Positions 38,491-42,766 of a DNA stretch of 64,000 nucleotides are shown here, piece after piece. Position numbers and translations under genes: made by a program. Source of the DNA: Dechloromonas denitrificans (GTDB lineage: Bacteria > Pseudomonadota > Gammaproteobacteria > Burkholderiales > Rhodocyclaceae); the NCBI RefSeq assembly GCF_020510665.1, contig NZ_CP075187.1:1508501-1572500 (forward strand), given 5' to 3'. Position 1 is the stretch's first letter. The number at the start of each line of letters is the position of its first letter. The notes under the pieces are model-generated. The model made no database searches. It had not been told where the DNA came from and was given only the letters and a program-made list of their open reading frames with translations.

Positions 38491-39051
38491 TTTTTCAGTG
38501 GCGGGCGGTTCGGTGACGTCGTCGAGCGACTCGATCAGGACAAACAGACGCTGGTAGAACGCCGGGTCCGTCACGGTTTCTTCGCCAACTTTGACCAGCG
38601 TGCCCTTGTCTGTCGGCCAGGGCAGCGAAACCGAGCCGATGCCGGCTACGCTGAGGCCGGTGCTGGTGCCGCTCGATTTCAATTCATAACGCGTTTGCAG
38701 CGCATTGGCGTAGATGGTCGCCCCCTTGCGGCTGCCCAGGCAGACGAGGCTGATCTTCAGTTGCAGCTGCTGATCCGCTTGCGGCTGAAAGAACTTGGCG
38801 CCGCGTATCGTCTGCGCATTCATCGTTTCGACTTCATAGCCCTGGCTGAGCAAGGCACGTTTGCCCTGTTCGCAAACGATGGTGTAAGGCTGGTCGCTGT
38901 GAAACTGGAAGGGCGATTCGGCATCGAACGATTCGGTGCGGTAAGCCACCGGCGGCTTCGACGCGCAGGCGGCGATCAGCAGGGCGAGACCGGCCAGGCC
39001 AAGGCGCGCGATGGGCAGGAACTGTTTGGTGCGGCGAACTTCAATCTTCAT
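38479..39051 (-). CDS. DUF2242 lipoprotein
   Basis: A 190-residue lipoprotein with the lipobox IAAC at Cys29. The mature part fits DUF2242: ESFDAESPFQFHSDQPYTIVCEQGKRALLSQGYEVETMNAQTIRGAKFFQPQ is the leading block region, and GSVSLPWPTDKGTLVKVGEE and FYQRLFVLIESL follow. The family function is unknown. Its last 12 bp overlap the ATPase gene tail to tail. Confidence 0.85.
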   Translation of the reverse strand: MKIEVRRTKQFLPIARLGLAGLALLIAACASKPPVAYRTESFDAESPFQFHSDQPYTIVCEQGKRALLSQGYEVETMNAQTIRGAKFFQPQADQQLQLKISLVCLGSRKGATIYANALQTRYELKSSGTSTGLSVAGIGSVSLPWPTDKGTLVKVGEETVTDPAFYQRLFVLIESLDDVTEPPATEKSEK

Positions 39052-39106
39052 GGGCGCGGATATTAACGCATTGGCAGTGCGTTCGTTGCTTGGCCGATCA
39101 CCCGCT

Positions 39107-39319
39107 CTAGTCGAACAGGCTGGGCTGAAGCGGCGCCAGGTTTTCCTGTTTGACTGTCAGTCGCACCGCAACACCCTGACGTCCGATCGCTTCGACGACC
39201 ATCCGGCCACCGCAGGCTTCGGCCACAACGCGGACATTGCGGATCGTCTTGCTGCTTCGTCCGGCATAGCAGGCAACCGTTCCGGCATCCGGCAACCAGT
39301 GGGTCTTTCCTTGATTCAT
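39107..39319 (-). CDS. Small hypothetical protein, possibly SOS-regulated
   Basis: A 70-residue protein beginning MNQGKTHWLPDAGTVACYAG and ending LAPLQPSLFD. It is probably soluble: a basic SSKTIRNVRVVAE section, then a short hydrophobic VVEAIGRQGVAVRL. No signal peptide or known motif is recognised. The ATG at 39319 follows GGGAGA at 7-bp spacing. The LexA-type operator at 39383-39398 lies 64 bp upstream and is shared with the divergent 54-residue gene. Confidence 0.6.
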   Translation of the reverse strand: MNQGKTHWLPDAGTVACYAGRSSKTIRNVRVVAEACGGRMVVEAIGRQGVAVRLTVKQENLAPLQPSLFD

Positions 39320-39370
39320 GCGCGTTCTCCCATGGTTGATAACAGTGCCAAGGTTAACTCAGCGTCGTTA

Positions 39371-39410
39371 AATATCCGAATACTGTACATTTATACAGTA
39401 TTCGGATATT
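39371..39410. promoter_or_regulatory. LexA (SOS) operator within a perfect long inverted repeat
   Basis: AATATCCGAATACTGTA (39371-39387) and TACAGTATTCGGATATT (39394-39410) are perfect complements around CATTTA. The core CTGTACATTTATACAG (39383-39398) fits the LexA consensus CTGT-N8-ACAG exactly and has flanking TA on both sides, as strong E. coli boxes do. It lies between two divergent small genes. Symmetry beyond the LexA core could make a second binding surface or a hairpin. Confidence 0.8.
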
Positions 39411-39484
39411 CTGCTTCCAACAGCAGTTTGCGCTGTCGAAAAACGCAATCTTCACCATCCGATTCATGGCTAGGAGCAAGCAAA

Positions 39485-39649
39485 ATGAAAACACTGCAAA
39501 AATGGTTTGATCAGATCGCCGGTGTGGCCGAAGGCGAGCAGGAGCGTCTGGCTCGTGCCCGGGAGATTTTTTCCGACGAAATGGCGGATGTGTCGAATCT
39601 TGAAATACCGGCTTGCTGGCGTCGCCGCAGCCGTATCGGTCAGCGCTGA
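39485..39649 (+). CDS. Small hypothetical protein, possibly SOS-regulated
   Basis: A 54-residue protein (N-terminus MKTLQKWFDQIAGVAEGEQE; C-terminus WRRRSRIGQR). It is predicted mainly helical, with an amphipathic N-terminus, an acidic middle and a basic tail; no membrane span is clear. The ATG follows AGGAG by 8 bp. It begins 86 bp downstream of the LexA operator. No family is recognised; small SOS products elsewhere include cell-division inhibitors and toxins, but nothing here proves either. Confidence 0.6.
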   Translation: MKTLQKWFDQIAGVAEGEQERLARAREIFSDEMADVSNLEIPACWRRRSRIGQR

Positions 39650-39674
39650 TCCGATTCTGGCGGCCAGCGCTTTT
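39643..39674 (+). terminator. Possible terminator after the 54-residue gene
   Basis: GCGCTG (39643-39648) can pair with CAGCGC (39665-39670), followed by TTTT. The 16-base loop makes it weak. It overlaps the end of the small gene and lies before the convergent hpnE stop. Confidence 0.35.
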
Positions 39675-39685
39675 CAGGCTAGGCC

Positions 39686-40906
39686 CTACAGGCTCAATGC
39701 CTGGCGGGCAGCGCGCAAGCCGCTGCGCACTGCGCCTTCGAGGGTGGCCGGATATTCTGCCCAGGTGTAGTCGCCCGCCAGAAACAGCAAGGGATGCGAG
39801 CTTGCACAGGCCGGGCGCGTGATGCCCGGTCGGCATGAAAAAGTAGCGCGTTTTTCACGCACTACCCTGAACCAGCTGGCCGGCTCACCCAGCCCTAGTT
39901 CGGACTGCAATTGCGCAGCGAGCGTCGTGTCATCGAGTTGTGTCCAGTCGCCCTGGCCGCTTTGTACGCAGGCGAACAGGCCATTGCCGCGGTCCACGAC
40001 CCATTGGCCGCATTTTCCATTCAAGCTTTGCAGGGGAAAGGGCAGTTTCGTTTCCGGCCGGAATTGCAGGTAGACCGTGGCAATCGGCTCGTAATCGTAG
40101 TGAGCATCGATCGCCGGCCAGAGGCGGGCAGCGTGTTGCGGTGCCGTGGCCAGGATGACGGCGGAAAAATGTTCACCATCAAGCGTGATGCCGCTGTTGT
40201 CGGCCAGGATCGATTCGACGCGACAACCGGTACGCAGGCTGGCTCCCCGACTGCGTAACCAGCATTCGGCCGGTTCGGGCAGGAGTTCGCCAAACGGTAC
40301 GCGTGGCAGCAGCAAATCAGTATCGGCGCGGCGTGAACTGCCCAGGCTGTCGCGTAACACATTGGCAAAAAGCTGGGCTGAAGCGCGGTCGACCGTGGTA
40401 TTCAGTGCGGCAAGACAGAGTGGCCCCCAAAGGTGCTGGCGCAGGGTGCCTGTTTGGCCGGCAGCATCAAGCCATTCGGCCACGGTCTGCTGCGCATCGA
40501 CCTGAAAGCCTCTTTGCTTGACACCTTCCATCCACAGGGCGGTGTTTATTTTTTCGCGCAGGCCGACGCCTTTTGCGGTGAATAGTCCCCACGCCACGTT
40601 GAGCGGTGCAGGGAGTTTGGGCAATGCCATGCTGAAACCGCACTTGTCGGTGACTTGCAGTGGGCGACGGTCGAACAGCTGGTCGGGGTCGGCTCCGACC
40701 CGGCGCATCAGGGCCAGTGTTTCGCTGTAGGCGCCGAGCAGGATGTGCTGGCCGTTGTCCAGTGTCCGGCCATCCAGCTGGATCGATCTGGCCCGCCCGC
40801 CGAGTCTGCGGCCGGCTTCGAACAGCGTCGTATCGGCACCGCCGGCGGTCAGTTCAACGGCCGCAGCGAGGCCGGACCAGCCTCCACCGATAACGGCGAT
40901 TTTCAT
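39686..40906 (-). CDS. hpnE: Hydroxysqualene dehydroxylase
   Basis: A 406-residue FAD-dependent amine-oxidase-like protein. The dinucleotide-binding motif IAVIGGGWSGLAAAVEL opens the protein and is followed by LFEAGRRLGGRARS. The C-terminal block LFLAGDYTWAEYPATLEGAVRSG binds FAD. HpnE reduces hydroxysqualene to squalene. The start at 40906 is chosen because the Rossmann motif begins right after it; an ATG farther upstream would overlap hpnD. It follows hpnD by 7 bp. Confidence 0.93.
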   Translation of the reverse strand: MKIAVIGGGWSGLAAAVELTAGGADTTLFEAGRRLGGRARSIQLDGRTLDNGQHILLGAYSETLALMRRVGADPDQLFDRRPLQVTDKCGFSMALPKLPAPLNVAWGLFTAKGVGLREKINTALWMEGVKQRGFQVDAQQTVAEWLDAAGQTGTLRQHLWGPLCLAALNTTVDRASAQLFANVLRDSLGSSRRADTDLLLPRVPFGELLPEPAECWLRSRGASLRTGCRVESILADNSGITLDGEHFSAVILATAPQHAARLWPAIDAHYDYEPIATVYLQFRPETKLPFPLQSLNGKCGQWVVDRGNGLFACVQSGQGDWTQLDDTTLAAQLQSELGLGEPASWFRVVREKRATFSCRPGITRPACASSHPLLFLAGDYTWAEYPATLEGAVRSGLRAARQALSL

Positions 40907-40913
40907 CGGGCGA

Positions 40914-41747
40914 TCAGGCAAACATCCAGGTCTTGCAGGCAATCCAGATTTTGCGAACCGGGGTCAGTGCGATGCGCTGGTGCAGTACCTGGAAATTCTC
41001 GGCCTTGATTTCGTCGAGCAGGGTGCGGTAGATGGCTGCCATGATCAGGCCGGGGCGCTGATTCTTGCGGTCGACGGCGGGTAACTGGGCAAATGCCTGG
41101 GCGTAGTATTTTTCGGCACGCTCGGTCTGGAACTTCATCAGCGCGACGAAGTTGTCCGAATACTTGCCGTTGAGAATGTCGGCGGCCGGCACGTTGAATT
41201 GCTTGAGTTCATCCATCGGGATATAGATGCGGCCGCGCCGGGCATCTTCGCCGATGTCGCGAATGATGTTGGTGAGCTGGAAAGCCATGCCCAGGTCGTG
41301 GGCGTATTTTTGCGTCTGGCGATCTTCGAAACCGAAAATTTCGGCCGCGAGCAGGCCAACCACGCTGGCGACCCGGTAGCAGTAGAGCGACAGGCCCTTG
41401 AAGTCGAGATAGCGCGACTGCTGCAGGTCCATTTCCATGCCGTCGATAATTTCGAGCAACTGCTCTTTCGGCAGGTGGAACTGCTTGCTGACTTCTTTCA
41501 GTGCCAGGCCAACCGGGTGTTGCGGCTGGCCGTCGGCGACGCGTTCGACTTCCTGGCGCCACCAGGCCAGCTTGGTCGAGGCCAGCGAGATGTCGTGACA
41601 TTCATCGACCACATCGTCCACTTCGCGGCAGAAGGCGTAGAGCGCCATGATGGCACGGCGACGCTCGACCGGCAGGAAGAGGAAGCTGTAATAGAAGGAG
41701 GAGCCGCTGGCGGCACACTTTTCCTGGCAATACTGTTCTGGACTCAT
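40914..41747 (-). CDS. hpnD: Presqualene diphosphate synthase
   Basis: A 277-residue trans-isoprenyl diphosphate condensing enzyme. The first Asp-rich motif is AFCREVDDVVDECHD and the second is NIIRDIGEDARRGRIYIP, both binding Mg-diphosphate. The N-terminal SGSSFYYSFLFLP is typical of squalene/phytoene synthases. HpnD joins two farnesyl diphosphates to presqualene diphosphate. It sits 4 bp after hpnC in one operon. Confidence 0.94.
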   Translation of the reverse strand: MSPEQYCQEKCAASGSSFYYSFLFLPVERRRAIMALYAFCREVDDVVDECHDISLASTKLAWWRQEVERVADGQPQHPVGLALKEVSKQFHLPKEQLLEIIDGMEMDLQQSRYLDFKGLSLYCYRVASVVGLLAAEIFGFEDRQTQKYAHDLGMAFQLTNIIRDIGEDARRGRIYIPMDELKQFNVPAADILNGKYSDNFVALMKFQTERAEKYYAQAFAQLPAVDRKNQRPGLIMAAIYRTLLDEIKAENFQVLHQRIALTPVRKIWIACKTWMFA

Positions 41748-41751
41748 GGGG

Positions 41752-42561
41752 CTACATTCTAAAGGAACGGCCGGCAAGTACGACCCAGTCCCATTTGCCG
41801 AGCTTGGGCCGGCGGTTGAAAACATCGCCGCGCACCTGGCGCAGGCGTTCGAGAATACGCAGGCCGCCTTGAATCGTCAGGCGGATTTCCCAACCGAGCC
41901 GGCCAGACAGGGCATGAACCAGCGGCGCTCCGCGCAGCATCAGGGCCTGTGCCCGATCCATTTCAAAGTCCATCAACGCAGCCCAATTGGCCGACCAGCG
42001 GCTGGCGGCGATATCGGCTTCACTGACCTTGAAATGCGGAAAATCGGTTTGCGGAATGTAAACCCGGTCTTTTTTCCAGTCGACCGCGACATCCTGCCAG
42101 AAGTTGATCAGTTGCAAGGCGGTACAGATGCAGTCCGATTGCTCCAGATGTTCCGCTTCGGTCCGGCCAAAAAGATGCAGCACCAGGCGACCGACCGGAT
42201 TGGCCGAGCGGCGGCAGTAGTCGTGCAGCTCCGGGTAGTCGGCGTAACGTTGCTTGACCACGTCCTGAGCGAAGGCGTCGAGCAGATCGCGAAATAGCTG
42301 AATCGGTAATCGATGGGCCTGAATGACGTCGGCCAGATCGGCAAACAAGGGCGTTTGCGGCGGGCTGCCCGCTTCGATCCGGTCCAGTTCGCTGTGGTAG
42401 GCCTTGAGATCGGCCAGGCGCTGCCCGGCGGTGGCGTCGCCTTCATCGGCGATGTCGTCGGCGCTGCGGGCGAAACGGTAAATCACCTCGATCGGTCGAC
42501 GCAGTCGCGGCGGCACGAGCAGGGAGGCAACGGGGAAGTTTTCGTAATGATCGACGGGCAT
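41752..42561 (-). CDS. hpnC: Hydroxysqualene synthase
   Basis: A 269-residue enzyme with the squalene/phytoene synthase fold: ENFPVASLLVPPRLRRPI, first Asp motif RFARSADDIADEGD, second motif NFWQDVAVDWKKDRVYIP. HpnC turns presqualene diphosphate into hydroxysqualene. It is the first gene of hpnC-hpnD-hpnE. Squalene would feed hopanoid synthesis, but no shc or other hpn gene lies within the window. Confidence 0.93.
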   Translation of the reverse strand: MPVDHYENFPVASLLVPPRLRRPIEVIYRFARSADDIADEGDATAGQRLADLKAYHSELDRIEAGSPPQTPLFADLADVIQAHRLPIQLFRDLLDAFAQDVVKQRYADYPELHDYCRRSANPVGRLVLHLFGRTEAEHLEQSDCICTALQLINFWQDVAVDWKKDRVYIPQTDFPHFKVSEADIAASRWSANWAALMDFEMDRAQALMLRGAPLVHALSGRLGWEIRLTIQGGLRILERLRQVRGDVFNRRPKLGKWDWVVLAGRSFRM

Positions 42562-42583
42562 GGGGCCGCAAGTATAGGGTGGA

Positions 42584-42603
42584 AGCGGATTGAGTGGTAG
42601 AAT
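42584..42603 (+). promoter_or_regulatory. Possible extended -10 promoter of tRNA-Leu
   Basis: TAGAAT at 42598-42603 is preceded by TGG, an extended -10 form, 11 bp upstream of the mature tRNA. No good -35 is seen at the usual distance. Confidence 0.4.
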
Positions 42604-42614
42604 CCGCGCCGCCT

Positions 42615-42699
42615 GCCCAAGTGGCGAAATTGGTAGACGCACCAGATTTAGGTTCTGGCGCCGAAAGGTGTGGGGGTTCGAGTCCCTTCTTGGGCACCA
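42615..42699 (+). tRNA. tRNA-Leu (anticodon TAG)
   Basis: An 85-nt class II tRNA. The acceptor stem GCCCAAG pairs with CTTGGGC, the anticodon arm is CCAGA-TTTAGGT-TCTGG giving TAG, there is a long variable arm, and the T-loop is GGTTCGAGTC. CCA is encoded (42697-42699). It decodes CUA and related leucine codons. Confidence 0.97.
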
Positions 42700-42732
42700 G
42701 TCGCATATTGCGATTGGCATGGTAATTTTCAG

Positions 42733-42766
42733 AGGCCGCTTCAATCCGGGGATTGGCGGCCTTTTT
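42733..42766 (+). terminator. Rho-independent terminator after tRNA-Leu
   Basis: AGGCCGC (42733-42739) pairs with GCGGCCT (42756-42762), with an inner stem CAATCC/GGATTG, and TTTT follows. It is a strong hairpin 34 bp beyond the tRNA. Confidence 0.88.

Follow-up and report, generated by a model that had tools for sequence, protein, structure and literature searches.

A LexA-controlled divergent promoter very probably lies between two small genes in a stretch of 64,000 nucleotides of DNA from Dechloromonas denitrificans, referred to here as the window. Both genes belong to undescribed families. The leftward gene (39107..39319, minus strand) encodes a protein of 70 residues with a predicted SH3/Tudor-like five-strand barrel, and the rightward gene (39485..39649, plus strand) encodes a protein of 54 residues with a predicted helix (residues 2-29) and the motif PACWRR. 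The divergent promoter is deduced from the conservation of the LexA box, from the fixed offsets of the -10 elements on both sides of it, and from boxes at recA, lexA, uvrA and dinB. The best overall explanation of the locus, which combines such a promoter with two small effectors, is given an even chance.

The putative operator, its promoters and its conservation

The putative operator (CTGTACATTTATACAG, 39383..39398, no strand assigned) matches CTGT-N8-ACAG exactly and is part of an extended inverted repeat (39371..39410, likewise without strand), the arms of which (39371-39387 and 39394-39410) comprise 17 nt each, are 100% complementary and are separated by 6 nt. The initial annotation of this DNA had reported the same box within perfect 17-bp arms, and its coordinates were confirmed. 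The site is the sole exact match in the window, with shuffled sequences containing 0.41 matches on average and at least one match in 31 of 100 cases. Within the 3.46-Mb genome of the strain, 25 sites fit the pattern compared to 24 for a control pattern read backwards. The 16-bp pattern by itself is thus no better than chance and not significant, and the case for the operator therefore rests on its conservation. Adjoining the locus are hpnC-, hpnD- and hpnE-like genes for squalene synthesis (minus strand, 39686-42744), named by reading their translations.

The rightward promoter overlaps the box. Its -35 element TGTACA (39384..39389, plus strand) lies inside the operator and is followed after 17 nt by the -10 element TATTCT (39407..39412, plus strand). 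Among the 70 of 71 exact boxes upstream of homologous genes that are followed by at least 24 bases, the left half CTGTACA is found in 58, and TAnnnT occurs exactly 8 bases past the box in 59, compared to at most 3 for any other offset from 0 to 17. Because both features are conserved, TGTACA-17-TATTCT is regarded as a promoter with its -35 element in the box. On the opposite side, the likely -35 element TTCGGA of the 70-residue gene (39375..39380, minus strand) is located 2 nt outside the operator. It was compared in 29 sites, consisting of the window and the 28 loci in which both genes are linked, and begins with TT in 27 of them. A hexamer of the form T[AT][GA].CT, mostly TAGCCT or TAGGCT, is found exactly 25 nt leftward of the box in 26 of the 29 sites; the likely -10 element of the window itself, TTAACC (39352..39357, minus strand), is a poor one. 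Ribosome-binding sites were read from the sequence as AGGAG for the 54-residue gene (39472..39476, plus strand) and GGGAG for the 70-residue gene (39327..39331, minus strand), in agreement with the earlier description of a small gene with such a site on each side.

An exact box is present in 71 of 92 regions (30 + 62) upstream of matches to the 54-residue protein. After 13 boxless, weak or partial matches had been set aside with the result in view, the exact box is found in 71 of 79 loci, and in 78 of 79 when up to one mismatch is allowed, a few of these possibly by chance; 71/92 is the unselected figure because these exclusions were made knowing that the box was absent. Ten of the excluded genes (L101, L102, L104, L106, L107, L109, L110, L111, L127, L128) were regarded as boxless and paralogue-like, with some of them scoring on the profile like retained ones, and three (L129-L131) as weak or partial. 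Four further cases (G005:C50, G035, G009, G017:C304), from which no locus of the 54-residue gene was obtained, are in neither figure. In the 79 loci, 82 boxes are found in 14,930 upstream bases versus 2 in 254,687 bases elsewhere, and two reversed-pattern controls gave no match upstream. In L016, the sole locus without a box at up to one mismatch, the sequence as read contains a stretch that resembles the box but has a 9-base spacer. A second exact box follows after 41-49 bp, usually 48 bp, in 11 of the 79 loci, the window having only one. The operator is thus conserved in relatives, as the initial annotation had demanded of its SOS-type reading, which is further supported by the fixed promoter positions and by a box in 28/28 loci where the 70-residue gene is linked. 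LexA control of the 54-residue gene is very probable as judged from these patterns.

The ten paralogue-like proteins lack a box in the 170 bases read upstream of their genes. In six of them (L107, L109, L110, L111, L127, L128) a palindrome, mostly like GGCTCA-N5-TGAGCC, is located about 55-100 bases before the start, which is perhaps another operator or a terminator; no such palindrome was found upstream in L101, L102, L104 and L106.

Dyad symmetry extending at least 6 bp past the box is found in 12 of 78 homologous sites, including some from near-identical relatives, versus a mean of 2.0 and a maximum of 6 in 500 re-paired controls. Long arms occur in the window (39371-39410) and at L093, L082, L013, L015, L090 and L120, with arm sequences that differ between species. 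They may result from templated mutation, or from the leftward -35 element (TTCG..) coinciding with a similar sequence on the right-hand side. A second copy of the operator stretch was not found in the genome of the strain, the other match being the palindrome against itself. Since the dyad runs well past a LexA box, it might be read by another LexA-like or a phage-type repressor instead of the host LexA. This is highly improbable, as the same 16-bp form is found at lexA and recA of the same genome (L133, L138), and relatives of the 54-residue protein in plasmid and phage collections, or of the 70-residue protein in viral contigs, were not found.

Of the 25 genomic sites, 16 were examined (15 and that of the window), leaving out nine that by eye were less LexA-like. 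Good sites are located at lexA, recA, uvrA, dinB, an integron integrase, a 62-residue ORF and a glyoxalase-like ORF, and a weaker one at ruvA; lexA, recA, uvrA, dinB and ruvA were named by reading translations, and the dinB box overlaps the first codons of dinB as called. Several of the remaining sites are intragenic or have poor scores. With the E. coli consensus of 20 bases, the site in the window shares 18 positions, recA and intI 17, lexA and dinB 15, uvrA 14 and ruvA 13. A site profile also ranks the window first, a ranking that is biased because sites of the 54-residue family served to train the profile. According to PMC3108266, CTGT-N8-ACAG is the form of the LexA box in most beta- and gamma-proteobacteria. 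The locus resembles the beta-proteobacterial SOS regulon in having this box over a sigma-70-type promoter in a genome with boxes at recA, lexA, uvrA and dinB, and differs from it in that both targets belong to undescribed families and one box serves two divergent promoters.

Three of these sites are described in more detail. At L137 (G000:C1:2130500-2135500; site G000 2132897), the box CTGTACATAAACACAG is located right at the start of an integron-integrase-like gene; SOS control of such integrases is the subject of PMC3108266. At L135 (G000:C1:1990000-1995000; site G000 1992469), the ORF of 62 residues begins 40 bp past CTGTATAAACATACAG, which overlaps a promoter-like stretch, and this ORF is possibly another small SOS gene. 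At L134 (G000:C1:1827500-1832500; site G000 1829823), the strong box CTGTATATTTATACAG lies between the glyoxalase-like ORF and an unrecognised one.

The 54-residue protein and its candidate roles

Both ORFs behave as coding because third codon positions vary most: differences at positions 1/2/3 amount to 5413/5281/10658 for the 54-residue ORF (30 sequences, 435 pairs) and to 3071/2211/7323 for the 70-residue ORF (22 sequences, 231 pairs). Neither protein had been assigned to a recognised family at the outset, and this was borne out by scans against Pfam, NCBIfam, PHROGs and PADLOC, which gave nothing above chance; a match to a Cas9 bridge helix (E 0.047), below its own cut-off, was dismissed as chance. 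Sequence searches of the PDB with the two proteins returned four and two matches, all with E values of at least 0.23, and a Pfam domain was not found among the best 120 of 286 proteins from a profile search with the 54-residue family. Titles and abstract openings on LexA/SOS, Betaproteobacteria, Dechloromonas, Rhodocyclaceae, Accumulibacter and Azonexus contained no published work on these genes.

The 54-residue family was matched in 32 of 60 genomes including that of the strain itself, all 32 being among 36 genomes of the same genus. At the level of the family it was matched, weakly in a few cases, in 63 of 395 genomes from 13 of 68 genera, and at the level of the order in 7 of 399 genomes. 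The motif PACWRR (residues 42-47; 39608..39625, plus strand) is conserved as PA.WRR in 78 and as ACWRR in 76 of 79 proteins, and the residues M1, Q5, G13, F29, D35, L39 and P42-A-C-W-R-R47 are invariant in 29 aligned members. In the structure model (pLDDT 80, pTM 0.37), helix 2-29 is accompanied by two further, short ones, with a moderately amphipathic stretch in the first 18 residues (moment 0.44). A membrane segment was not found, the highest Kyte-Doolittle mean over 19 residues being 0.14 for the protein in the window and 0.98 among the 79. Since the model is essentially one long helix with a pTM of 0.37 and without a match in Foldseek, any target of this protein is a guess.

SOS control is shared with SulA, which blocks division, and with ImuA (both PF03846). 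The 54-residue protein differs from them by its small size, its predicted helix with PACWRR and the lack of a sequence match: PF03846 matched neither of the two proteins at E up to 10 and nothing in the genome of the strain, an absence that carries little weight because the profile may miss distant SulA proteins. PF03846 was matched in 78 of 297 genomes of the family; the matching open frames, between 214 and 853 residues in length, were taken for ImuA. The idea that SulA/ImuA and the 54-residue gene exclude each other by clade was dropped, as G649 has both; it is also at odds with G459, in which imuA was read even though this genome is not among the 78 matches (perhaps because it was not sampled). 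The division inhibitors SidA, DidA, YneA and SosA have a single-pass topology. They are, like the 54-residue protein is expected to be, small proteins made after DNA damage, as described in PMC4211646, and small damage-induced division inhibitors are characterized as membrane-bound in PMC6051672; the 54-residue protein, in contrast, has no membrane segment. By analogy with SulA or SidA, a role in delaying division or replication is possible, with somewhat less than an even chance.

As a small and LexA-controlled protein with two boxes at times, which would be expected if leaky expression were costly, the 54-residue protein might alternatively be an SOS-induced toxin that arrests growth like TisB or DinQ. 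This is improbable given that it has no hydrophobic membrane segment and no match in PADLOC; also, no Rfam match was found at E 0.1 in 38900-39900, where an undescribed antisense RNA could still be encoded. Nor do the two genes resemble a toxin-antitoxin pair, as they are divergent, lie apart in 17 of 45 loci and have no match in PADLOC.

The neighbourhood of the 54-residue gene suggests another function, namely that of an accessory protein or brake of the translesion polymerases DinB or ImuB/DnaE2 rather than of a division or replication checkpoint. In four of the eight matching genomes of one genus, g204 (L095, L096, L097, L122), dinB is located directly downstream of the gene, as detected by tblastn with the DinB of the strain itself, and dinB is also found beside a boxless paralogue (L110). 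In G459 (L196), a lexA-imuA-imuB-dnaE2 cluster, the genes of which were named by reading, contains the gene together with its own box between imuB and dnaE2. The proximity to translesion-synthesis genes in these two other genera also fits SOS control of the 54-residue gene. In 6 genomes of the same genus, 7 loci have dnaE2 on their contig at a distance of 10-27 kb, in contrast to about 290 kb in G008. These dinB and imu-cluster neighbours are few and non-independent cases: matches to dinB or dnaE2 were found only at L095, L096, L097, L122, L110 and L090, with short searched flanks of mostly 1.5-5 kb, the four dinB cases come from a single genus, and clustering of SOS genes may have other causes. 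The genome of the strain encodes a single protein with an IMS domain, located at dinB, and the only match in its DnaE2 search was 31% identical and taken for DnaE1. Among 23 genomes of the same genus, some of them incomplete, the 54-residue gene is retained by 6 of the 7 that lack a DnaE2-type match and by 14 of the 16 that have one, and is thus not dependent on the DnaE2 polymerase. A translesion role is somewhat unlikely, and a delay of division or replication remains the preferred reading.

The 70-residue protein and its link to the operator

The 70-residue family was found in 26 of 60 genomes, as well as in the form of 78 proteins and at 45 named loci. In 28 of these loci the gene is divergent to the 54-residue gene; each of them has an exact box, which is nearly always located 75-81 bases before the start of the 70-residue gene and farther away in L167. 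In the other 17 loci the genes lie apart, and an exact box is absent from 16 of them in the up to 400 upstream bases read (291 in L178); the exception is L177, with a box at -80 like that of the linked loci. LexA control of the 70-residue gene therefore looks to be present where the promoter is shared and mostly absent elsewhere. In the organism studied here, such control is probable, as suggested by the arrangement of the promoter.

Alternatively, only the 54-residue gene could be SOS-controlled, with the 70-residue gene being a neighbour that encodes a general-use barrel, for example for binding of RNA or protein. This would agree with the 16 unlinked loci without an exact box, with the neighbours of unlinked genes, some of which adjoin prfB, zapE or aspartokinase/guaA (named by reading; neighbours examined in 12 of 17 loci), and with the fact that the box is kept at the 54-residue gene where the 70-residue gene is elsewhere or was not found. 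It is rather unlikely in view of the box in all linked loci, the -10-like hexamer at its constant leftward distance and the box of the unlinked L177, all of which favour control of both genes.

The 70-residue protein is predicted to form a five-strand barrel (mean pLDDT 81, with two of five models at 65 and 59), which would be similar in kind and size to the small SH3/Tudor-like barrels PSHCP (6nnb), Ssl0352 (3c4s) and NdhS (6a7k). Its tail Q-P-x-L-F-D resembles a sliding-clamp-binding motif, the consensus of which is Q-L-x-L-F according to PMC4549789. The candidate motif QPSLF (residues 65-69; 39113..39127, minus strand) lies near the C-terminus, and Q1, L4 and F5 are found in 64 of 78 homologues, all 64 with P at position 2, and Q..LF is absent from the other 14. 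The protein shares these three residues with the beta-clamp-binding proteins described in PMC4549789, and differs from them in having P for L at position 2 and in being a predicted barrel, not a polymerase or transposase. Recruitment to the replication fork by binding of this tail to the beta clamp is only tentatively proposed.

A proposed damage response

In the undamaged cell, a LexA dimer would be bound to the palindrome over the -35 element of the 54-residue gene, abutting that of the 70-residue gene, so that expression of the former would be silenced and that of the latter reduced at the least. Once DNA is damaged, self-cleavage of LexA, stimulated by RecA, would open both promoters. The 54-residue protein might then attach to a host target by way of its amphipathic helix and its PACWRR tail and hold back division or replication during repair, and the 70-residue barrel might reach the replication fork through binding of its C-terminal tail to the beta sliding clamp. 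Our best guess is accordingly a damage-checkpoint effector with a fork-associated partner. In its full form, a new SOS checkpoint of the Rhodocyclaceae in which one operator and two promoters simultaneously provide a soluble 54-residue inhibitor and a clamp-tethered barrel that jointly hold fork or division during repair, this proposal is unlikely.

To our knowledge, many SOS-controlled genes outside E. coli are without a known role. The locus adds two undescribed small families under a conserved putative damage switch, and both genes are likely part of the emergency response to DNA damage, as far as can be judged from sequence comparison. Their role is directly testable, since carriers include named Dechloromonas isolates. 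Should the tail of the 70-residue protein bind to the clamp, this protein would be an SOS protein of very small size that is targeted to the replication fork.
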